Part shown: in pieces, positions 20,201-31,303 of the stretch
Layout: each line of letters starts with the position of its first letter
Numbering within the stretch: the first letter of the stretch is position 1
Assembly: GCA_018814305.1 (NCBI GenBank)
Contig: JAHJAA010000045.1
Span: 200,346 to 264,345 of the forward strand
Source: Pseudomonadota bacterium
GTDB lineage: Bacteria; Desulfobacterota; Desulfobulbia; Desulfobulbales; JAGXFP01
Direction of reading: 5' to 3'
DNA length: 64,000 bases
Position numbers and translations under genes: made by a program
The notes under the pieces: generated by a model
Told to the model about the DNA's origin: nothing
Database searches by the model: none
Seen by the model: the letters and a program-made list of their open reading frames with translations, nothing else

Positions 20201-21232
20201 TCAAGCACCTCCCGTAAGCCGATAGAGGAGAAGATGGTATGAAGAAAGACCGGTAAAAATAATAAGCAACACGAGGGACAGGAGAACCGCGCCCCGGCGG
20301 TACCTGCGGATGGTCTGGGCCACATCATCCATCCCGGCAAAGGGTTCGACCACCCCGACGGAGAGTCCGAAAAAAGCCCCGGCGAGGAGCGCCGCATAGA
20401 TGAAAATCCCAATGCACCCATATTCGGATTTGATGATACAAAAAGGACAGTGATGATAAGGCATCGCGTAAATATATGACGAAAAGACGGTAGTAATGGC
20501 TGCTAAAGAAACCACCAGAAAACCGGCCCACTCCAGACTGAAAATCCCGGACAGACCACCAGTGACCAGTCGCCTCACCTTACCTAACGTCTGCCATAAA
20601 AAACAAATCCCGGTCATAATTATGGCTCCCGCCAGGCCATAAAAAGCAATCAGGGTGGCCTGGGGATCACTGCCGGTTAAGAGGTTACCGCGGCCACCGC
20701 CCCCTTCATCGCCGAAAACCACCGAACAACATGAGGTGATGATATCCGGTTTGAGATTGGCGAGAAACAAGGTCTGCAAGACCATATCGACAAGAATCAC
20801 CGGGACTAGACCCAGCAGAAAGATGAATTTAAATCTGACCAGGGGATAGCGTTCCGAACTGATATCAATTCGATGAAACAGGATCCAAAAACCATACAGA
20901 AAAGAACCAACGAGTTTAATGAGCAGGTCCGGGATACCGTAAGCATTGGCGGTCAAGGTTCCGGTGGCGCACATTGCCCCACTGATCATCTGACTGAAAC
21001 GATCGGCGGCTATTACAAAAAGGAGCAACGTCAACACCTGGATCAACAGGGCGTACTCGACCAGAGTCGCCGAAAGCCACGTCTCGGCCTCAAGCCGAAT
21101 CTGCCGATTGGAATCACTTGACGGATCCCAGTACAACAAGACCCGCACTGCGGTTTTCGCCGCCGTGCCCACCAGAAAAAGCACGATCACGGCGCAGAGG
21201 GTAAGATTGAGGCTCCATGGATTAAGGAACAT
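20201..21232 (-). CDS. Multi-pass membrane protein with a CPFC motif, partner of the adjacent ABC transporter
   Basis: About 343 residues with seven to eight predicted membrane segments. A HHCPFC motif followed by KSEYGC lies in a loop before the penultimate pair of helices. A Cys-Cys pair and a Gly-rich loop (EGGGGRGN) are in the central extracytoplasmic region. The two Cys-rich loops could bind metal or form disulfides; this is inference. The gene overlaps the end of the ABC ATPase upstream by about ten bases (start taken at 21230-21232; a Met five codons earlier is also possible), which implies coexpression. I do not recognise the family. Confidence 0.7.
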   Translation of the reverse strand: MFLNPWSLNLTLCAVIVLFLVGTAAKTAVRVLLYWDPSSDSNRQIRLEAETWLSATLVEYALLIQVLTLLLFVIAADRFSQMISGAMCATGTLTANAYGIPDLLIKLVGSFLYGFWILFHRIDISSERYPLVRFKFIFLLGLVPVILVDMVLQTLFLANLKPDIITSCCSVVFGDEGGGGRGNLLTGSDPQATLIAFYGLAGAIIMTGICFLWQTLGKVRRLVTGGLSGIFSLEWAGFLVVSLAAITTVFSSYIYAMPYHHCPFCIIKSEYGCIGIFIYAALLAGAFFGLSVGVVEPFAGMDDVAQTIRRYRRGAVLLSLVLLIIFTGLSSYHLLLYRLTGGA

Positions 21233-21902
21233 GGTGGATCCGCCCATCCTTCACATCAATGATTCGATCTAAAGAAGGGCTCTCGGTAATCAATTGATCA
21301 TGGGAGGCAATAATGACTGTTTTGCCTTCAGTTTTGAGGTCATCCATGATCTGCATGAATTCAAGGCTGAGACGGGTATCAAGATGGGCGGTTGGTTCAT
21401 CGGCCAGGATTATCGGCTGATTGTTGATCAGAGCGCGGGCAATGGCAACCCGCTGCAGTTCGCCACCGGAGATTTGCCGAGCAGGGAAATCAGCTCGGTG
21501 GGCAATCCCAAGCCGCTCCATCAGCATTGTTGCCCTTTTTTTACGAATGGCAGGAGCAACCCCCAAAGGAAGCAGAGGCAAACCGATATTGTCAAGAACC
21601 GTCAATTCGGGCAGGACATTGAACTGTTGGAAAATAAAACCGATGTTTTGTCGTCGATGGATAGTCATGAACCGGTCCGGCAGACGGGACAACTGTTTTC
21701 CGGCAATGGCCGCTCTCCCGCTGGTTGGCGGGAAAACACAACCGATAATAGACAGAAGGGTCGATTTTCCGGAACCACTGGCCCCCCGGAGACAGACCAT
21801 GGTGTTTTCTTCTATGGCCAGGGTCACATCGGTCAAGGCCCGAACCTCATTGGCATGGCCCTGATTATAAATTTTGGTAACCAAATCCAGTTCTATCAAC
21901 AT
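21222..21902 (-). CDS. ABC transporter ATPase, LolD/MacB type
   Basis: Nucleotide-binding subunit of a mechanotransmission-type ABC system. It has 226 residues, with Walker A GASGSGKST, Q-loop FIFQQFN, signature ISGGELQRVAIARA, Walker B IILADEPTAHLD and the H-loop ASHD. The start is the ATG at 21900-21902, 14 bases after the stop of the FtsX-like permease with which it must pair. A longer frame extending into the permease gene is rejected. It sits in an operon with nosL and a tlpA-like gene. Confidence 0.92.
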   Translation of the reverse strand: MLIELDLVTKIYNQGHANEVRALTDVTLAIEENTMVCLRGASGSGKSTLLSIIGCVFPPTSGRAAIAGKQLSRLPDRFMTIHRRQNIGFIFQQFNVLPELTVLDNIGLPLLPLGVAPAIRKKRATMLMERLGIAHRADFPARQISGGELQRVAIARALINNQPIILADEPTAHLDTRLSLEFMQIMDDLKTEGKTVIIASHDQLITESPSLDRIIDVKDGRIHHVP

Positions 21903-21915
21903 CCGCCTATCCCCG

Positions 21916-23103
21916 TCATTTAATGGCCGCCTCGGGAGGGACGATGGAGCTTCGCCAGGCCGGAATAACCGTTGCCGCCATGTACGGAACCACGGTAAAG
22001 GTGAAAATAAGCAGGAGGTCGTCACCGCCAATGACTGGAATAATGGTTAAAGAAGGATGGATGACCGACCACCCCAACAGAATCGGTCGGAATAACGAAC
22101 CGGAAAAAAAGAGGACATGGCCATAGGCCCCGAGGCAGCCCACCAGAAAGGCGAGTCCCGAGACCACCAGACTCTCCCAAAAGCGCAGAGCCAGAATATC
22201 AGAAGTCTGCCAACCGATCACCTTAAGGATGCCGATCTCCCGTTTTTCTTCAGGAGACAGCCCTGAGGCCTTGTCCCAGGCGAGAATGGCAAAGGCCACT
22301 AACGCTGTCAGGAGACAGATCGAGGCAAATCCGCTGCGCCAACCGAATATCACTTGATAGGTTTTCTGAATCTGCGGCTTGGTTAAAACCCGGGTATCGG
22401 GCAGACGGGCCGCTATTTTCCGGGCAATGGTCCCCACCTCAGCAGGATTCGCCACATAGATGCAATAATCCGTAACCACTTCCGGGGGCATATCAAAGAG
22501 ATCCCGGCCATCGGCCAGACTCATCAGAATGAGGTCTGCGGTCATTATCTCGGTCGCAGGATTGAACTCTCCCACAACCCTCAGAGGCTTCAGGGAAAGA
22601 TCAGGCCGAAAGAGGGAGAAGGTCCGGCGACCTCCTAAATGTAAATTACCCAGAACAGTCTGCCCTAAAACAATCCCACCATTCAGATTATTAGACGGGA
22701 CCTCCCCGATCACGGCCCTGCCAAGTTGAGAGCTGGCTGGCATGGCATCAAGCTCCAAGGCCATGACCGTATAATTGGCGCCATTGGTCTCATCAAAATA
22801 ATACCCCCAGATGCGAGGGACAACCTTGAGTATTCCAAAGATATCATCCAGGCGTTCCCGATAGTCCAGGGGTATGGCCTCCTGTCGCCCTGCAGACATC
22901 TTCTGAATGACGATATCAGGGACCTCGGTCAGGATTTTTTCAGAAACATCTATTAATCCCCTGGTTAGCATCTGAAAAGATGCCACCAAAAAAATAACCG
23001 CCGCGAATACCATCATGATTCCGGCGTTTTTCAACCTGCGACGCCAGAGGGAAGTTAAGGCATAATCAAGGAGATTAAGATGTCTTTCCAAAATGGGGGT
23101 CAT
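21916..23103 (-). CDS. FtsX/MacB-type ABC transporter permease
   Basis: 395 residues. One N-terminal transmembrane helix (about 26-48) is followed by a large periplasmic MacB-PCD-like domain, then three C-terminal helices of an FtsX domain (about 258-385). A coupling segment GLSPEEKREIGILKVIGW is typical of MacB/LolC permeases. It pairs with the ATPase directly downstream. The ATG overlaps the stop of the small secreted gene upstream by four bases. Such systems extract or move lipoproteins and other periplasmic substrates rather than importing solutes. The substrate here is unknown, but the nosL neighbour suggests metal-centre assembly. Confidence 0.9.
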   Translation of the reverse strand: MTPILERHLNLLDYALTSLWRRRLKNAGIMMVFAAVIFLVASFQMLTRGLIDVSEKILTEVPDIVIQKMSAGRQEAIPLDYRERLDDIFGILKVVPRIWGYYFDETNGANYTVMALELDAMPASSQLGRAVIGEVPSNNLNGGIVLGQTVLGNLHLGGRRTFSLFRPDLSLKPLRVVGEFNPATEIMTADLILMSLADGRDLFDMPPEVVTDYCIYVANPAEVGTIARKIAARLPDTRVLTKPQIQKTYQVIFGWRSGFASICLLTALVAFAILAWDKASGLSPEEKREIGILKVIGWQTSDILALRFWESLVVSGLAFLVGCLGAYGHVLFFSGSLFRPILLGWSVIHPSLTIIPVIGGDDLLLIFTFTVVPYMAATVIPAWRSSIVPPEAAIK

Positions 23104-23414
23104 TGCTTTCCCCCAAACTTTTCAACTCTAATAATATGCGAAGGAACCGCCCAGAAAGAGCCGGTTGGGAAATGTTCGATGGCAAAGGGGTGATCCATAA
23201 AGGGTGCCATGGGGTCCGAGATTGACGGGTGTCTAGTATACCTGGCCTCGGTGGCGATACAGAGGTCGGTGAGACCAAGGCCTGCGGTCACTGCTTGGTT
23301 CAACCCCAAACTTTCCATTGATTCTTGGCGCAGTTGTACTGCCCTGCCCCAGGCTGCTCCACTGGCCATGAGCAGCAAGGTAACAATAATCAAGAGAAGT
23401 CCGGTGGGACGCAT
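23100..23414 (-). CDS. Small secreted protein of unknown function in the nosL cluster
   Basis: 104 residues with a clear signal peptide (LLLIIVTLLLMASGAAWG). A compact domain follows, with the motif DLCIATEARYTRHPS and the segment DPMAPFMDHPFAIEHFP, rich in His, Met and Cys. The cluster of possible soft-metal ligands beside nosL suggests copper or heme handling, which is inference. The stop overlaps the permease start by four bases and nosL ends five bases upstream of its start, so it is tightly embedded in the operon. I do not recognise the family. Confidence 0.75.
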   Translation of the reverse strand: MRPTGLLLIIVTLLLMASGAAWGRAVQLRQESMESLGLNQAVTAGLGLTDLCIATEARYTRHPSISDPMAPFMDHPFAIEHFPTGSFWAVPSHIIRVEKFGGKQ

Positions 23415-23419
23415 GGGGC

Positions 23420-23935
23420 CTATTTCATGGGTTTCATCGTCTGCCCTGAACGCAAACGGGTAATTAGTTCAGAAGTAATTTCCGAGAAAGTGACGATTCG
23501 CTGGCCATGATGGTCGACCAAAAAAGATTCTGCCGCAGCCTTACTGGAAAAAGGGATGAGTTCATGCCCCATGGGCCCGTGGACATCACTGCCCAAGACA
23601 AAGAAGGCCTGACGCCCGTCCAGCCACTTCAGAGAATAATAATCCTTGACCCAGACTTCGGCATTTTCAGCCAGGGGTTGCCCACCAAACTTCGTTGGGG
23701 CAAAATAATAGGCCATCATATCCTTAACTCCGTCAAAGCTGGCCGGATCATTACTCCCCAGAGCGATCTGAGCGATCCATCCCGGATATTTAGCCACAAA
23801 CATACCGCAAACAGGACAACGTACCGCCCCGTCAACCGTGTCTTGAGGCGCACCCTGGCTGATTGCAGGGAAGAGCAAAGCGGAGATAGTCAGCATAACA
23901 ACCATACCGAAAAGAAACATTTGGTTCTTCAACAT
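23420..23935 (-). CDS. nosL: NosL-family copper-binding protein
   Basis: NosL proteins bind Cu(I) and deliver it to nitrous oxide reductase; relatives occur in organisms without that enzyme. It has 171 residues with a signal peptide (about 1-29), then the metal motif RCPVCGMFVAKYP with C40, C43 and M45. The rest of the NosL fold follows (DGVKDMMAYY, WVKDYYSLKWLDGRQAFFVLGS, GPMGHELIPF). Many NosL proteins are lipoproteins, but here the signal peptide ends in SQGA without a lipobox Cys. No nosZ is in the window, so the recipient is unknown; the heme protein at 25.7 kb is a candidate. Confidence 0.9.
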   Translation of the reverse strand: MLKNQMFLFGMVVMLTISALLFPAISQGAPQDTVDGAVRCPVCGMFVAKYPGWIAQIALGSNDPASFDGVKDMMAYYFAPTKFGGQPLAENAEVWVKDYYSLKWLDGRQAFFVLGSDVHGPMGHELIPFSSKAAAESFLVDHHGQRIVTFSEITSELITRLRSGQTMKPMK

Positions 23936-23965
23936 AAAAGTATCCTTGGGGGTTGCTGTTGAATT

Positions 23966-24502
23966 TTAATGTTCATTTTTTTGCCAGTAATGCCCCAACA
24001 CCTCATCCAACTCTTCACTGGTCACCCCACCAAGAATAGCTGCTTTGATCCGGTGGTCCTGATCCAAAACCAAGGCCTGGGGAACGATATGAACATTGTA
24101 CAGATCGGAAACCTTCCGGCCGAAATCAATACTCACCGGGAAAGGAATCGCCAAATCCTCGACAAATTTCTTGACCTGGGCCTGATCCACGGTCGTGGTC
24201 AGATACAGAATCTTGAGCCCATCCTCTTTATGTTCCTGATAATACTGATTAAATGTCGATGTATCAGCCTTACAGAACTTACAATCGGTTACAAAAAAAC
24301 GAATAACAACCGGGTTCCCTGCATATCCAGACAACTGAAAAGGTCGTCCGTCAAGTCCTTCTACCAGAAAATCCGGGGCAACGTCCCCAATCTTGAGCGG
24401 GGTATCCGTCCCCCGAGAACACCCCCAGACAAAGAAGAACAAAAGCATGGTGAGCCCAAAAATGGTCCTAATATCAACGTGCTTAATTTTTTTTTTGAGC
24501 AT
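23966..24502 (-). CDS. TlpA/ResA-like thioredoxin-fold lipoprotein
   Basis: 178 residues. A lipoprotein signal with lipobox Cys28 (FFVWGC) anchors it to the membrane. The thioredoxin fold follows, with the redox pair C74-x2-C77 (DCKFCKAD) and the cis-Pro region NVHIVPQALVLD. Proteins of this type reduce cysteines of apocytochrome c or of copper sites outside the cytoplasm. Both uses fit the neighbours, nosL 30 bp downstream and a CxxCH protein encoded on the other strand. It is part of the minus-strand operon. Confidence 0.9.
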   Translation of the reverse strand: MLKKKIKHVDIRTIFGLTMLLFFFVWGCSRGTDTPLKIGDVAPDFLVEGLDGRPFQLSGYAGNPVVIRFFVTDCKFCKADTSTFNQYYQEHKEDGLKILYLTTTVDQAQVKKFVEDLAIPFPVSIDFGRKVSDLYNVHIVPQALVLDQDHRIKAAILGGVTSEELDEVLGHYWQKNEH

Positions 24503-24599
24503 TATTCAGACCACGTTAAAGAGGCATAAACGGCACAAAGCGGCCTCATGAAAGCCAACCGACAAAGTTTTTATGAGGAGAAAAGTCAGATGAATTTTA

Positions 24600-25304
24600 T
24601 TATATTGAGGAAGCGACCTCTGAAGAGTTCTCACTCAACACCCCGTTTTTCATCATGAAGGTTCTGGGCTTGTGTTGGGTTTTTCCTAACACACCGTTGT
24701 GGGTAACAACCAGGAAGGTGGTTTTCGCAATTTGATTCTTCTCCCGAAAAATTCGCAGGATTTCGCCTTCGGTTTCTTCGTCAAGATCTCCGGTGGGTTC
24801 ATCGGCCAGAATAATGTCCGGTTGATTAATAAAGGCCCTGGCGATGGCCACCCTTCTCTGCTGCCCCCCCGACAACTGAGCAGGAAAGGACTTTTCCTTG
24901 CCAGAGAGACCAACTTGCTCAAGCAGAGTACAGGCCTGATCGTAACTGCCGGGGGAAGGAGGCACCTTGGAAAAAGTCAACGGCAACAAGACATTTTCCA
25001 GGGCAGTCAAGGTCGGAATGAGACTGCTGAATTGAAAGATGAAACCAATGGTCCGATTCCGAAGTTCCGCGAGTTCAGATTCCGCCTGGCGATTTTGATC
25101 AAGACCGTGAATAATAACGGCACCAGCGTCAGGTCGCGCAAGACCTCCGATCAGACTCAACAGGGTCGTCTTACCTGATCCTGAATGGCCTAGAATAATG
25201 ACAAATTCGCCCTTTTCAACCTTCATCGATACATCATCAACAGCCCGAAAGTCCTTCCCTTCTGTCTGATAAACCTTCATCAGGTTCTTACATTCAATAA
25301 TCAT
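24600..25304 (-). CDS. ABC transporter ATPase, LolD type
   Basis: 234 residues with Walker A GHSGSGKTT, signature LSGGQQRRVAIARA, Walker B IILADEPTGDLDE and H-loop VTHN. It is a second LolD/MacB-like ATPase in the cluster and has no permease next to it on this strand. The FtsX-type permease at 27024-28223, on the opposite strand 1.7 kb away, is the obvious unpaired partner. It is the first gene of the minus-strand run towards tlpA-nosL. Divergent regulatory DNA lies to its right. Confidence 0.9.
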   Translation of the reverse strand: MIIECKNLMKVYQTEGKDFRAVDDVSMKVEKGEFVIILGHSGSGKTTLLSLIGGLARPDAGAVIIHGLDQNRQAESELAELRNRTIGFIFQFSSLIPTLTALENVLLPLTFSKVPPSPGSYDQACTLLEQVGLSGKEKSFPAQLSGGQQRRVAIARAFINQPDIILADEPTGDLDEETEGEILRIFREKNQIAKTTFLVVTHNGVLGKTQHKPRTFMMKNGVLSENSSEVASSI

Positions 25305-25692
25305 TTTATACCTTTCTCCCGAGTTCCAGGGATGATGTGAATAGGTTGGAGGAATTCTGCGTCGACCAAAATTGAAAAATCTAATGTATTTACCACCGAA
25401 CAGGCAAGTCTAAAAGTCATTCGCTAAAAAATATCCATCCCCATCAGGAAGCCACCATTTTTTGACCTTAACATAATAACCTTTAGAAAAAAATCACTCT
25501 GGCATTTCATGGAACATTGTGATACTAATCAAACTTACAAATTCAGTAATTGCATTATGAAACAGCAAGCAGCTTGAAACCTCGGTGGTGTTTCAATGAT
25601 AAGCACCATTGGGACCGGAGTCGGTGGAGACCCCTTGCGACACTGGCCTCTTTCTCCACCGTACAACACAATTGAAAAAACAGGAGGAACGC
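25305..25692. other. 388-bp divergent intergenic region of the NosL/heme cluster
   Basis: Lies between the minus-strand LolD-like ATPase and the plus-strand heme protein, so promoters for both arms must be here. It is A/T-rich around 25380-25560. No clear sigma-70 pair or sigma-54 (GG-N10-GC) box could be assigned by eye. A good AGGAGG ribosome site (25682-25687) serves the heme protein. No additional gene was seen. Confidence 0.45.
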
Positions 25693-26868
25693 ATGAAAGT
25701 TTCGAAGAATTTGCTGACCGGATCAATTCTTGTCGGCGCCGCAACCCTGGCGATTATCGGCCTCAACCAGCCGAACAACGTCTCGGCCATGGGTAACAAA
25801 CCCGAGGCGGATTCAGGTTCATCGGCCATGATGGCCAAGACCTACCAGGCAACTTTCTATGTTGCCGGGATGGGTGGTCATTTTGCCAAGGCCGTCGCTA
25901 CCATCGATCCCAATGCTGATATCCCAATCCAACTCAGCAGCCTGACCAAGGTCGACATCGGTGACGGTGCCAGCCATCCTACCCATGATCCCCGTATTGA
26001 TCTTACCGACACCAACACCATGTTCTGGTCGACCTACAAAGTCGATCCCGCCACCGGTGCTCCCCATGTCGGTAAAACCGACCTTAGAACCGGCAAAATC
26101 ATTACCGATGTTAATGCCCCCCTTCCTTCCCAGGCAACCAAAACGAAATCGCTCTACTGTGCCTCCGGTCAAACCAAGGATTATTTCATGCCCATCAGCA
26201 TGGCTAATCTCGGGTACATCGATGTTTTTCGCAAATCCGACATGAAACGAGAGCATACCGTATTCCTGGAAGGAACCGATGCGGATTCAGGCAAGCCCTA
26301 TAAGTTTTATCATGGCGCTACCTCCAACGACATGAAGAAATTCCTCATCACCGTCAATGAGGCCGATGCACCCCATGGCAATACCATTGGAAAACTCCAC
26401 CTTATTGAAGTTGACGCCGATGCCATGACCCAGGGCAAGGTCAAAGTCCTGCAGAAAGGAATGGCCGTAGGCCGTGAGAAAGAGAGCATCAGCTTCCGCG
26501 CCGATTATTCCGATGATGACACGATGATCGCCGCTTCCTATGCCGACCGGATGATCCTGCTTGATGACAAACTCAACACCTTAGACGCTGAGATGATGCC
26601 GAAGCATGAGCAGAATCATGATGCCATCTTCACCCCGGACGGTCGTTATCTCGTCTTGACCCTCAGGACCAAGGTCGTTGATCCCGAATGCAAAAACCCC
26701 GATGCCCCCGGCCCGGATGAATTCCTGATGGACGGCCAACTTCGCCTCTATGATGTCCAAGCCAGGAAACTGATCGGCAAGGCCACCTCAACCTGTCTTG
26801 CCTGTCACAACCAGGAAGGCCTGGAATCACATGCCGTTCTTTGTGGCGTGGACGCAGTGTTCAACTAA
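25693..26868 (+). CDS. Secreted mono-heme c-type protein with a beta-propeller-like body
   Basis: 391 residues from the ATG at 25693, which follows AGGAGG; upstream in-frame Mets lack a ribosome site. The signal peptide is about 1-34 (NNVSAMG). The body has WD/YncE-like strands (GYIDVFRKSDMK, KLHLIEVDADAM, MIAASYADRMILLDD, TPDGRYLVLTLR). A single heme-binding CLACH lies near the C terminus (368-372), followed by a conserved-looking LCGVDAVF ending. Propeller plus heme c recalls cytochrome d1-type and YncE-like proteins, but the heme is at the opposite end from NirS. Codon use is GC-rich and strongly biased, suggesting high expression. The divergent nosL/tlpA operon may mature it; that is inference. 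Confidence 0.82.
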   Translation: MKVSKNLLTGSILVGAATLAIIGLNQPNNVSAMGNKPEADSGSSAMMAKTYQATFYVAGMGGHFAKAVATIDPNADIPIQLSSLTKVDIGDGASHPTHDPRIDLTDTNTMFWSTYKVDPATGAPHVGKTDLRTGKIITDVNAPLPSQATKTKSLYCASGQTKDYFMPISMANLGYIDVFRKSDMKREHTVFLEGTDADSGKPYKFYHGATSNDMKKFLITVNEADAPHGNTIGKLHLIEVDADAMTQGKVKVLQKGMAVGREKESISFRADYSDDDTMIAASYADRMILLDDKLNTLDAEMMPKHEQNHDAIFTPDGRYLVLTLRTKVVDPECKNPDAPGPDEFLMDGQLRLYDVQARKLIGKATSTCLACHNQEGLESHAVLCGVDAVFN

Positions 26869-26894
26869 GAATAGTTTTTTTGATGGTTTCACCC

Positions 26895-26926
26895 GGCGGA
26901 GCCCTGCACAGGGCTCCGCCTTTTTT
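26895..26926 (+). terminator. Strong intrinsic terminator after the heme protein
   Basis: An 11-bp perfect stem, GGCGGAGCCCT / AGGGCTCCGCC, with a 4-base GCAC loop and TTTTTT directly after it. It lies 27 bp past the stop codon. It insulates the heme gene from the downstream permease. Confidence 0.92.
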
Positions 26927-27023
26927 ATTGCCGGATTCCTGAGGATAATGGTTTAATACCTCTACGTTCCTTCACCTGCAGGTTATTTTTTTATTCATCT
27001 CCTTATTAGAGACACGATCGTTC

Positions 27024-28223
27024 ATGCCTGAAAAAAATATTCTTTCAATTCACTCCCTGGCCTGGAAGAGCGTTACCCGGAAGCTCTTCCGGAATATCGT
27101 TCTGGTTCTTGCGGTCTGTATGCTGGTAGCCCTTCTGGTCTTTGCCCTGTTGTTCGATAATGCCGTTCGCGAAGATATTGAGGAAGCCGCCCGAAAACTG
27201 GGCGCAGATCTGGTTCTGGTCCCCGCAGAGGCCAAGAGTATTGCCGAAGAATTTATTCTGGAGAGCAAGGAAAAAACCTTTTATATGGACTCCTTTGTCC
27301 TCGAATCAATAGGAGATCTACCTGAGATCGCCAACCTCAACTCCCATATCTATCTGGAAACCCTGGAATCCGGTTGTTGCAGTATTGAGGAAGGACAGGT
27401 GGTGGTCTTCGATCCGGAAAACGATTTCGTCGTGAAACCATGGCTGGTTAGCCCACCTGAACATCCACTTGGTGAAGGAGAAATCTATGTTGGTAGTTAT
27501 GTCTACGAATACCTCGGTCTGATCAACACCGCGAGTCTCTTTGGCGAAAAGGTCAAGGTAATCAATCACCTCGCCAAGACCGGCACCGGCCTGGACCACG
27601 GGATCTTCATGCGAAAAATGGATCTCGACAAAATTACCAAAATAGCCACGGGTGCCAACTATAAACAGGGCGACTTATCGATCATCTTTGTCAAACTGAA
27701 GGAAGGCGCCGACCTGGAAGAGGTCTATAAAAAAATCCAATCAATCAATCCCCGCATTGGGATCATGACCAGAGGAACCATTGGCGCCGATGTCCGGTCC
27801 ACCCTCAAGGATATGATGAAGGTTTTCACCATCACCATCACCATCTCGGCCCTGCTGGCCATCCTTCTGGCCTGGTCCACCTTTACCGCCCTAGCCAATG
27901 AACGACGGCGGGAAGTGGGAATCCTTCAGGCCCTGGGCGCCGGCAAAGGTCATATTGTCATGATGTTTCTAGCGGAAGCGGCCATTATCAGTCTGTTTGG
28001 CGGGGTGCTCGGAGTCCTCTTTGGCCATCTGCTATTGAACCTGCTGGCCGCAGACTTTACCCTCATGACCCGACTGGGAGAGATCTCTATCACGTCAGTC
28101 CAGAGCATCCTGTTAAGTCTGATTGCCCTGGGTCTCGGCTGTGGCGTCTGCCTGATCGGCGCGGTGATCCCAGTCTTCAGACTTGCTCAACTGGAACCTC
28201 TCCTGGCCTTAAAGGAAGAGTAA
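27024..28223 (+). CDS. FtsX/MacB-type ABC permease, probable partner of the LolD-like ATPase at 24.6 kb
   Basis: 399 residues. The N-terminal membrane helix (about 22-46) is followed by a periplasmic domain of about 210 residues and three C-terminal helices (about 268-395). The coupling motif NERRREVGILQALGAGKGHI is typical of LolC/E and MacB. No ATPase adjoins it on this strand, so it most likely works with the unpaired LolD-like ATPase encoded divergently. It follows the heme protein, after a strong terminator, so it needs its own promoter or readthrough. Substrate unknown. Confidence 0.88.
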   Translation: MPEKNILSIHSLAWKSVTRKLFRNIVLVLAVCMLVALLVFALLFDNAVREDIEEAARKLGADLVLVPAEAKSIAEEFILESKEKTFYMDSFVLESIGDLPEIANLNSHIYLETLESGCCSIEEGQVVVFDPENDFVVKPWLVSPPEHPLGEGEIYVGSYVYEYLGLINTASLFGEKVKVINHLAKTGTGLDHGIFMRKMDLDKITKIATGANYKQGDLSIIFVKLKEGADLEEVYKKIQSINPRIGIMTRGTIGADVRSTLKDMMKVFTITITISALLAILLAWSTFTALANERRREVGILQALGAGKGHIVMMFLAEAAIISLFGGVLGVLFGHLLLNLLAADFTLMTRLGEISITSVQSILLSLIALGLGCGVCLIGAVIPVFRLAQLEPLLALKEE

Positions 28224-28335: not shown

Positions 28336-29745
28336 CTATCCTTCCGGAACCACAATTTGATACTCCTTGATCTTGCTGAGCAGAGAGGGGAAACTCAACT
28401 CCAGCAACTCCGCTGCCCGCGAACGGTTCCCCCCGGTGGTCTGGAGGGCGCGGCTGATCAACTTTTTCTCCCAGACCTTCTTCGCCTCTTTCAAGGAAAA
28501 TCCAACTAGTTCATCATCATTAGGGCCGTTGCTCTCGGTTTTTGAGCCAATAAGACTAGCGGGGAGATTTTCCCTCTGGATAAAATTGGTTTCGGCAAGA
28601 ACCATGGCCCGCTCAATCAGATTTTCCAGTTCCCTTACATTCCCGGGCCAGCGATAATCTACTAATAGCGACATGGCCCCCGGCGAGACCCCTTCAATCC
28701 GCAGGCTCAGTTGCTTGTTGAACCGTTCGATAAACAACTGGCATAAGAAGGGAATGTCTTCCGGATGCTCACGCAGCGACGGCATCCGAATAGGCATCAC
28801 GTTCAACCGGTAATAGAGATCCTCCCTGAAAGTTCCTTGTTGAATGGCCTCTTCAAGATTGACCGAGGTCGCCGCCAGAACCCTGACATCGAGTTTTTTA
28901 TTGTGGGAAGAACCAACCGGACGAATCTCCCCTTCCTGGAGCACCCGCAGAATCTTGACCTGCATCAATGAAGGCAAATCACCAATTTCATCAAGCAAGA
29001 TTGTGCCACCGTCTGCCTCCTCGAAAAGCCCCTTATGGTCCCGATCCGCCCCGGTAAAGGCCCCTTTGACATGGCCGAAAAGTTCGCTTTCCAAAAGGGT
29101 TTCAGGGATGCTTCCACAATTAACGGGTACTAGAGGCCGTTCTGATCGGGGGCTTACTATATGGATACCACGGGCAATAAGCTCCTTACCGGTGCCAGAT
29201 TCACCGGTGATTAATACGGTGGTACTATACTTGGCCACTTTATTGGCCAGGCTAAAGACATCCTTCATGGGACGACTGGAACCGACCATGGCCCCGAAGC
29301 TTACCTCGGTTTCCAGGTTCCTCAGCCGAGACCGTAATCGGACGTTCTCTCGGCTCAGTTTCTCCTTTTCTTCGGCCTTTTTCAGGGCCAGCAGGACCTC
29401 GTCCGGTTTAAACGGTTTGGGGATGAAATCATAGGCCCCTTTTTTGATCGCTTCCAGGGCCAGATCAATGGTCGAATAGGCCGACATCATTATGATGGTG
29501 GCATTTCCCTTGAGCTCTCCCACCGCATCAAGAAAGGCCATTCCATCCATTCTGGGCATTTTAAGATCACAAAGAATAAAATCAAATGGAGTGCCAGCCA
29601 AGATTTCCAGAGCCTCAATGCCGTCGGCCGCCGATTTCACACGATACCCCTCACCCTCGGCCAGGATGCTCAACATATGACGCATATTTTCCTCGTCATC
29701 GATAATCAAGAGCGAATTCAACTCCTCCCGGTTGACTTCATACAT
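28336..29745 (-). CDS. NtrC-family sigma-54-dependent response regulator
   Basis: 469 residues from the ATG at 29743-29745, which follows AAGGAGAG. The receiver domain has acidic D16/D17 and phospho-acceptor D60 (CDLKMPRMDG). The AAA+ domain has Walker A GESGTGKE and the sigma-54 contact loop GAFTGA. The C-terminal Fis-type HTH ends in GGNRSRAAELLELSFPSL. It should activate sigma-54 promoters on phosphorylation. The kinase gene directly upstream overlaps its start by eight bases, making a cognate pair. No sigma-54 promoter could be assigned nearby with confidence, so the regulon is unknown. Confidence 0.95.
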   Translation of the reverse strand: MYEVNREELNSLLIIDDEENMRHMLSILAEGEGYRVKSAADGIEALEILAGTPFDFILCDLKMPRMDGMAFLDAVGELKGNATIIMMSAYSTIDLALEAIKKGAYDFIPKPFKPDEVLLALKKAEEKEKLSRENVRLRSRLRNLETEVSFGAMVGSSRPMKDVFSLANKVAKYSTTVLITGESGTGKELIARGIHIVSPRSERPLVPVNCGSIPETLLESELFGHVKGAFTGADRDHKGLFEEADGGTILLDEIGDLPSLMQVKILRVLQEGEIRPVGSSHNKKLDVRVLAATSVNLEEAIQQGTFREDLYYRLNVMPIRMPSLREHPEDIPFLCQLFIERFNKQLSLRIEGVSPGAMSLLVDYRWPGNVRELENLIERAMVLAETNFIQRENLPASLIGSKTESNGPNDDELVGFSLKEAKKVWEKKLISRALQTTGGNRSRAAELLELSFPSLLSKIKEYQIVVPEG

Positions 29746-31303
29746 GATCTGTCTCTCCTTGTGATCGTTCCTCATGGCTGCCATATTCAACCTCAGCCCC
29801 AGGTAGGGTAATAATAAATGTCGTACCCATTCCGGAAGTACTGGTCACCCTGATCAAACCTCCCAAATTTTCAATAAGGGTATAACAGATTGACAGTCCG
29901 AGTCCAGTGCCCTGACCGGGATCCTTGGTGGTAAAAAAGGGATCGAAGATGTGGGGAAGATGCTCTGCGTCGATCCCGACTCCGTTGTCAGTGATTTCAA
30001 TGCAAACCAATCCGGGTTGATCGGCTGGGGAGTTCTCAACTTTACTATATACCCGGAACCCTATCCGCCCGGAATGGTTATTTGGTCCGGACTGGACAGC
30101 ATCGGCGGCATTAATGATCATGTTAAGCAATACCTGCTTCATTTGAGCGGCTGGAACCATAATTAAACATTGATGTTCAGGGTATTCCCTGGTCACTTCT
30201 ATTCCAGCCATCTGGGGATGGACCGTGCATAGACTGATCACCTCGTCCAAGATCAGGGTCGGATCGAAGTGACCGACCGGTTCATCGGCCTCCGGTTGTC
30301 TGGCAAAATCAAGAAGCTGCCTGATGATGTTTTTTACCCTGGTCACCTCGCTCTCAGCCCGGCGGAGAAAATCTTGGCGCTGTTCACCGGTGAGCCGGTC
30401 ATTCTTCAGGAGTTCAAGATATCCGATCACAATACCGATGGGGTTGCCGATTTCATGGGCAACGCCGGCTGAGAGCCGTCCCACAGAAGCCAGACTTTCG
30501 GCCCGAACAATTTCTTGGTGAGCCCGACTCAATTCACGGTTGGTTGCTTCAAGAGAAGCTACAGAATCACGCAACTTAGTCCGATCGTCGTTGATCCTGT
30601 TCAGCATGGTATTCAAAGAACGGTATAGTTTGTTAAATTCACTATCCTTAAGGTCCTGGCGAAAAAAGAAGGCCTGCTCATCGGTAAATTTTTCGGCGGT
30701 TGCCACCAAACGATTAATGGGCTTAACCAGAGCCATATATAGACTGTAGAATCCAGCCAGGGTCAGTACCAGGATGTTGACCAAAAAATAAACAAAAAAT
30801 ATCCGTTGGGTGTTCAGGATACTTGTAACGGCATCTTCAAGGCTCATCTCAATCGCCGCAGCCCCGCTTAATTTTCCGTCCCGGATCAGGGGGACGGATA
30901 CCTGCAGGAGTTGCTTGCCAGAACGTGGCTCCCACCAGCTGAACCCTTTGGCGATTGTCTGTTCGAGGCCCGTCCCCAGAGTCAATTCAGTTAAGGAAGC
31001 GAGCCCTTCGAGGTCGCTGCAGGCGCCAACTTTGTTGAGGGTTTCTCCCCCTGAATCAAAAACGAGCAGACAGGTGGCCTTATTTCCCTTCAACAACGAG
31101 ATCATCCATGGCTCGACTGTCACCGCGCCCACGGTTGAATACTTAGACACCATGCCCAGAATCCCCCGGGCCTTATCCAAATGTTCCTTGATCAATTCCT
31201 GGCGAACTGAACCGATCATGACCAAATCGATCATAATCATGGCCGCCGCCAGAAGGAGTAGAAGATTGACGACAATTTTAGTCTTGATACCAATGGAGTT
31301 CAA
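29738..31303 (-). CDS. Membrane-bound sensor histidine kinase
   Basis: 521 residues. Transmembrane helices at about 8-31 and 167-190 bracket a periplasmic sensor domain of about 135 residues containing two Cys (C78, C95). A HAMP segment follows (about 186-240), then the HisKA domain with H283 in VAHEIGNPIG. The HATPase_c boxes are NAADAVQ, DNGVGID and GTGLGLS. The start is TTG at 31301-31303. It phosphorylates the NtrC-type regulator encoded downstream. The signal is unknown; the location beside the envelope cluster and an OmpA-like gene suggests an envelope signal, which is inference. Confidence 0.93.
   Translation of the reverse strand: MNSIGIKTKIVVNLLLLLAAAMIMIDLVMIGSVRQELIKEHLDKARGILGMVSKYSTVGAVTVEPWMISLLKGNKATCLLVFDSGGETLNKVGACSDLEGLASLTELTLGTGLEQTIAKGFSWWEPRSGKQLLQVSVPLIRDGKLSGAAAIEMSLEDAVTSILNTQRIFFVYFLVNILVLTLAGFYSLYMALVKPINRLVATAEKFTDEQAFFFRQDLKDSEFNKLYRSLNTMLNRINDDRTKLRDSVASLEATNRELSRAHQEIVRAESLASVGRLSAGVAHEIGNPIGIVIGYLELLKNDRLTGEQRQDFLRRAESEVTRVKNIIRQLLDFARQPEADEPVGHFDPTLILDEVISLCTVHPQMAGIEVTREYPEHQCLIMVPAAQMKQVLLNMIINAADAVQSGPNNHSGRIGFRVYSKVENSPADQPGLVCIEITDNGVGIDAEHLPHIFDPFFTTKDPGQGTGLGLSICYTLIENLGGLIRVTSTSGMGTTFIITLPGAEVEYGSHEERSQGETDHV

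Follow-up and report, generated by a model that had tools for sequence, protein, structure and literature searches.

Of the described systems closest to the locus reported here, NosL-NosDFY includes the NosL protein, whose Cu(I) motif in clade II is CxxCxM (PMC6530538); in Campylobacter, the Cj1658-Cj1665 operon encodes Ftr1, P19, two permeases, an ATPase and thioredoxins (PMC6338021); and thiocyanate dehydrogenase (TcDH) is a seven-bladed trinuclear copper enzyme (PMC9456337), near which copper genes and a sigma-54 regulator are located (PMC6504805). The MacB/LolCDE transporters were also compared with the locus.

Nine open reading frames were located at 20201-28223 of the window (the whole stretch of DNA analysed, 64,000 nucleotides), where a preliminary description had placed them, and the analysis agreed with its naming of a NosL, a TlpA-like protein, two LolD-type ATPases, two FtsX-type permeases, a small protein (S104), a membrane protein (CPFC) and a mono-haem propeller (PROP). 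The features of the region were the following:

20201..21232, minus strand: CPFC, a polytopic membrane protein of about 343 aa without a Pfam family (67 homologues aligned)
21222..21902, minus strand: ABC1, a LolD/MacB-type ATPase of 226 aa (start refined)
21916..23103, minus strand: PERM1, an FtsX/LolCE-like permease of 395 aa
23100..23414, minus strand: S104, 104 aa, exported or membrane-anchored, without a Pfam family
23420..23935, minus strand: NosL-family protein, with C40-x-x-C43-G-M45 and M122 invariant
23966..24502, minus strand: TlpA/ResA-like thioredoxin lipoprotein, with C74-x-x-C77
24600..25304, minus strand: ABC2, a LolD-type ATPase of 234 aa
25305..25692, no strand: divergent intergenic region between ABC2 and PROP, common to the genes of both strands
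25693..26868, plus strand: PROP, a secreted beta-propeller of 391 aa, predicted to be six-bladed (signal peptide by inspection) with one haem c site, C368-x-x-C371-H372
27024..28223, plus strand: PERM2, an FtsX-type permease of 399 aa with vicinal C118-C119
28336-29790, minus strand: response regulator adjoining PERM2, of the sigma-54-activator type by inspection
29738-31303, minus strand: histidine kinase adjoining the response regulator

Alignment of orthologues set the start of PROP at 25693 (not 25609), that of ABC1 at 21902 (not the TTG at 22031) and that of CPFC at 21232. Outwards from the intergenic region, the order of transcription was ABC2-TlpA-NosL-S104-PERM1-ABC1-CPFC on the minus strand and, divergently, PROP-PERM2 on the plus strand. 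Sigma-54 promoter matches in the window were at chance level (53 vs. 56 expected) and no site was found in the intergenic region. In four close relatives (L054-L057) the histidine kinase and the response regulator likewise adjoin PERM2, and this pair is therefore possibly the regulator of the locus. Other neighbours included an eleven-haem cytochrome just past the block in close relatives (L080:2302-3555; also L081 and L087) and a YeeE/YedE-type sulfur transporter (PF04143) near the propeller in some Desulfobulbales loci (e.g. L154:5823-7268); as these were present in some loci only, no substrate was inferred from them.

NosL matched PF05573 (E 1e-33; 116.7 bits vs. the curated Pfam cut-off of 24), carried a Sec-type signal without an obvious lipobox, and its CxxCGM motif (C40, C43, M45) was invariant in all 53 of the 53 sequences aligned. 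The TlpA-like protein matched AhpC-TSA/Redoxin in Pfam and ResA in NCBIfam, its Cys motif was CKFC, and a lipobox-like Cys28 was kept in 49 of 49 aligned sequences. FtsX (PF02687) was above cut-off in PERM1 and PERM2, as was ABC_tran (PF00005) in ABC1 and ABC2. The best NCBIfam models for these ABC parts were MacB, LolD and FtsE, with ABC2 below the LolD equivalog cut-off (225.8 vs. 307.75 bits) and PERM1 below that of LolCE (30.8 vs. 362.45 bits). None of the aligned homologues of CPFC and S104, all of which were scanned, had a Pfam match; PROP had no Pfam family, and all of its aligned homologues scanned gave at most weak generic propeller models.

The locus resembles NosL-NosDFY in its NosL chaperone with CxxCxM, in the adjoining genes for an ABC ATPase and a permease, and in that its possible client is a beta-propeller metalloprotein that is secreted. 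It differs as follows: nosZ, said in the preliminary description to be missing nearby, was absent from the whole genome (zero nos_propeller, PF18764, matches; genome 96.7% complete), and NosD was not in the block, NosD-like repeats being found only elsewhere in the genome; the permeases are FtsX-type and the candidate client is a haem propeller modelled with six blades; and a second ABC module is present in addition, as are CPFC, S104 and TlpA. Permeases, an ATPase and thioredoxin-like proteins around a periplasmic metal protein are also features of Cj1658-Cj1665, some members of which we take to be of the FtsX, TlpA and FtrD types, but the locus has NosL, CPFC, S104 and the propeller, while P19 (PF10634) was not found in the genome, nor Ftr1 or FtrD in the block by Pfam scan. 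The MacB/LolCDE combination of an FtsX permease with a LolD-like ATPase occurs twice; however, the ATPases fall below the LolD equivalog cut-off, and PERM2 nearly always follows the haem propeller and carries a conserved Cys-Cys pair.

In the AlphaFold2 model of PROP (pLDDT 86.9, pTM 0.84), strands counted by hand formed six four-stranded blades, with a C-terminal strand after the haem helix closing the ring. Foldseek retrieved generic WD40-like propellers with this model; in VIA-align, six-bladed YWTD domains ranked first (1npe, Z 25.5, 255 residues, 2.6 A) and, behind them, TcDH and NosZ at Z about 20 gave the longest alignments among the structural neighbours (275-285 residues, 3.5-4.5 A). 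Since PROP is six-bladed by strand count and its best structural matches are six-bladed YWTD domains, its likeness to NosZ and TcDH in the model may be generic propeller similarity. The idea that PROP is a relative of NosZ or TcDH was set aside, with no sequence kinship to NosZ-like proteins detected: HMM scores against the NosZ-like proteins of the phylum were at noise level, and hhalign against NosZ-like proteins matched only generic propeller repeats (sequence kinship was compared with NosZ-like proteins from the phylum, and TcDH by structure only). NosZ-like proteins of 565-600 aa with weak nos_propeller scores (34-46 bits) were encoded in other Desulfobacterota (L167-L171; G238, G204, G160, G312, G197). 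L166 encodes a typical NosZ, from which these proteins have clearly diverged. PROP and TcDH are alike as secreted propellers with a central metal site (in PROP, predicted only) and as structural neighbours (Z 20), and both have a sigma-54 regulator and copper genes close by; TcDH differs in its seven blades, against six counted in the PROP model, and in its flanking Cop or Cus genes, and NosL is not mentioned in the account of the TcDH locus (PMC6504805).

Conservation was assessed, with numbering from the Met at 25693, in three sets: Desulfobulbales (68 sequences, that of the window among them), Nitrospirota (24) and a divergent Nitrospirota branch (7). H63, C156, H309, C368/C371/H372 and C384 were invariant in all three sets, and H98, H125, H207 and R269 in the first two; H207 and R269 were not kept in the divergent branch, in which the inner-strand residues become Cys/Cys/His. 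The haem motif of PROP is CLACH, and CxxCH was invariant in all aligned members; as a secreted protein with CxxCH, PROP qualifies as a c-type cytochrome with predicted haem attachment. Residue 60, which exchanges between Met and His among homologues as expected of an axial ligand, is probably the distal axial haem ligand. Blades 1 to 6 have, in this order, C384, H98, C156, H207, R269 and H309 close to the beginning of their inner strands; from these positions in the model, the six residues should face the mouth of the channel.

The PROP motifs were kept in circularly permuted tandem double propellers of about 790 aa, which are followed by two FtsX permeases (L048:5279-7648, L049:5647-8037); this is consistent with a closed propeller ring. 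The genome of the window had a single propeller plus fragments of tandem-propeller loci (L070, L071, L072, L075). The divergent Nitrospirota branch of haem propellers (L202-L207, L143:5868-7019) had its own FtsX permease, often with a TPR or DUF4418 protein and a LolD ATPase.

Invariant residues of CPFC among the 67 homologues (numbering from the 348-aa ORF) were Cys93 (in GAMC), Cys173-Cys174 and His265-x-Cys267-Pro-Phe. With its AlphaFold2 model (pLDDT 88), Foldseek found no match below E 0.3, and VIA returned a helical-bundle background; some subunit III chains of haem-copper oxidases reached Z 9-10 and were not trusted. A VKOR/DsbB-like identity was considered and received no support from Pfam or from the fold searches. 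S104 carried the motif TEARYTRH...D...F.D.P...HFP.G, and the vicinal Cys pair of PERM2 was conserved at 0.99.

Within the order, 68 of 146 genomes had a PROP homologue, and these represented 33 of 54 genera; among 198 Desulfobacterota genomes sampled, homologues were present only in members of this order; full-length PROP was counted (E below 1e-100) in 22 of 148 Nitrospirota genomes. The named records with PROP were from Desulfobulbales (Desulfogranum, Desulfurivibrio, Desulfocapsa and many MAGs) and Nitrospirota. The full nine-gene arrangement recurred, with gene order and orientation unchanged, in many families of Desulfobulbales, which argues against a chance arrangement, and was re-sorted in Nitrospirota. 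The neighbourhood comparison, proposed earlier as the test by which unlinked genes would disprove a system, accordingly went in its favour, and supported the genes as a real and conserved system that includes a copper chaperone and is apparently undescribed.

The locus is composed of two linked modules rather than one machine. Module A comprises PROP, PERM2 and usually a LolD ATPase: PERM2 came after PROP on the same strand in 86 of the 91 cases with room downstream. A second architecture, PROP-PERM2-ABC2, with the ABC2 gene directly 3' of PERM2, was found in Nitrospirota and some Desulfobulbales, mostly without an adjoining NosL; several of these genomes carried module B elsewhere (L182-L187). 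Module B, NosL-S104-PERM1-ABC1-CPFC, was contiguous in 55 of 66 cases, and complete blocks were found beside PROP (35) and in loci fetched for CPFC alone (20, only one of which, L208, also carries PROP). PROP and CPFC co-occurred both in the order (63 genomes with both, 5 with PROP only, 16 with CPFC only, 62 with neither; Fisher p 7e-20) and in Nitrospirota (13/9/6/120, strong hits only; Fisher p 6e-9); these p-values are inflated by the relatedness of the genomes, and the pattern is present in two phyla. A divergent module B adjoined a further NosL together with RND genes of the CusB/CusA type (L172, L174) or was near an SCO1 protein (L173), and these neighbours point to copper; the RND genes were found only with the divergent CPFC type. 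Very large secreted proteins were encoded beside the divergent NosL block (L188:8168-12952, L172:11855-16001), that of L188 with a multicopper-oxidase-like domain (PF07731). In Nitrospirota, an FtrD-like (PF10080) lipoprotein, absent from the block of the window, adjoined NosL (L144:13111-13578, L155, L137, L157).

The preliminary description had proposed one machine for one dedicated client. This was not supported, since the NosL block occurs without a propeller: module B is autonomous and in some genomes lies beside the CusAB-type RND genes and second NosL, and the tightest partner of the propeller is PERM2. The propeller, suggested there as the likely client, is a plausible one, but could just as well be one of the working parts of the ABC module to which it belongs.

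The probable role of the nine-gene set is to handle copper on the outer side of the inner membrane, in concert with the secreted haem-bearing propeller. By analogy, and tentatively, as possible rather than probable, we propose a two-module system for periplasmic copper handling and metallocentre assembly, working as NosL-NosDFY does but built from different parts. Module B would bind and hand over Cu(I), with NosL as the putative Cu(I) chaperone, CPFC, given its invariant Met-Cys, Cys-Cys and His-x-Cys-Pro motifs, as a candidate for either a Cu(I) carrier or a thiol protein, and PERM1-ABC1 using ATP to perform conformational work across the inner membrane. Module A (PROP, PERM2-ABC2 and often TlpA) would service the secreted propeller, which would have one haem c and a channel mouth lined by His and Cys, probably with one or more copper ions; TlpA may keep Cys pairs or the haem site reduced. 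Copper as the metal is suggested by NosL and the genomic neighbours, and we likewise infer the occupancy of the PROP channel, the direction of transfer and the client role of PROP. The proposal is favoured by the invariant CxxCGM of NosL, the copper-related neighbours of module B, the co-occurrence of PROP with CPFC, the PROP-PERM2 adjacency and the intactness of module B, the PROP residues kept even in the divergent branch and in the tandem copies, the Met/His exchange at residue 60, and the PROP model of good confidence with TcDH and NosZ among its structural neighbours. The five genomes of the order with PROP and no CPFC, and the 16 with the reverse, speak against this two-module proposal, as do the missing sequence kinship of PROP to NosZ-like proteins, its six rather than seven blades by strand count, the failure of the divergent branch to keep H207 and R269, and the work unrelated to metals that FtsX-type ABC modules also serve (lipoproteins, peptides, cell division). 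A more far-reaching version, in which the six-bladed PROP, with about one His or Cys per blade lining its central channel beside a haem c, would found a new class of haem and copper metalloenzyme, matured by dedicated NosL, CPFC and S104 with two mechanical ABC transporters and with CPFC as a new Cu(I) membrane carrier, is considered unlikely.

Alternatively, PROP may be a subunit that works or senses in the periplasm for its own MacB/Lol-type transporter (with PERM2 and ABC2), e.g. a redox-gated exporter, the NosL block being a separate, co-occurring copper supply. This is the main rival, judged somewhat unlikely, and the data do not separate it from assembly. The PROP-PERM2 adjacency is the tightest link found (86/91), a diverged FtsX partner and a LolD ATPase of its own accompany the divergent branch of propellers (L205-L207), and the tandem double propellers are paired with two permeases (L048, L049), all in keeping with a transporter subunit; however, in two phyla PROP and the NosL block co-occur at the level of whole genomes, also where the two lie apart, and the complete block lies beside the propeller gene in 35 loci.

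Detoxification of copper (or silver), with NosL, CPFC and the ABC modules clearing the excess from the periplasm or inner membrane and PROP as a redox accessory (e.g. a Cu(I) oxidase), is distinctly unlikely. It would explain the CusAB-type RND genes and second NosL adjoining the divergent block (L172, L174) and the two-component regulators flanking many loci, but the RND neighbours are restricted to the divergent CPFC type, the block is without a P-type ATPase or a CopA/CueO-type gene, and the NosL described previously serves assembly (PMC6530538). Uptake of iron or another metal in the manner of the Campylobacter P19/Ftr1 system, with NosL replacing P19, is very improbable: the parts are of the same class (FtsX permeases, LolD ATPase, TlpA-like proteins) and an FtrD-like protein (PF10080) adjoins NosL in Nitrospirota (L144), but P19 (PF10634) is missing from the genome and Ftr1 and FtrD from the block of the window.

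To our knowledge, the supply of copper to periplasmic enzymes of anaerobic, sulfide-exposed bacteria is poorly understood. In the literature searched, no paper was found that combines NosL with FtsX or Desulfobulb- names, or with TlpA plus thiocyanate, which does not in itself prove absence from the literature. PROP, CPFC and S104, three families without a Pfam model, accompany one another in two phyla whose bacteria cycle sulfur and nitrogen, and do so with a NosL chaperone that has been characterised in another context, the assembly of N2O reductase. If PROP holds copper, it would be a new type of metalloenzyme with its assembly line encoded alongside, and one could then test directly which client NosL serves, and what it does, in genomes that lack nosZ.
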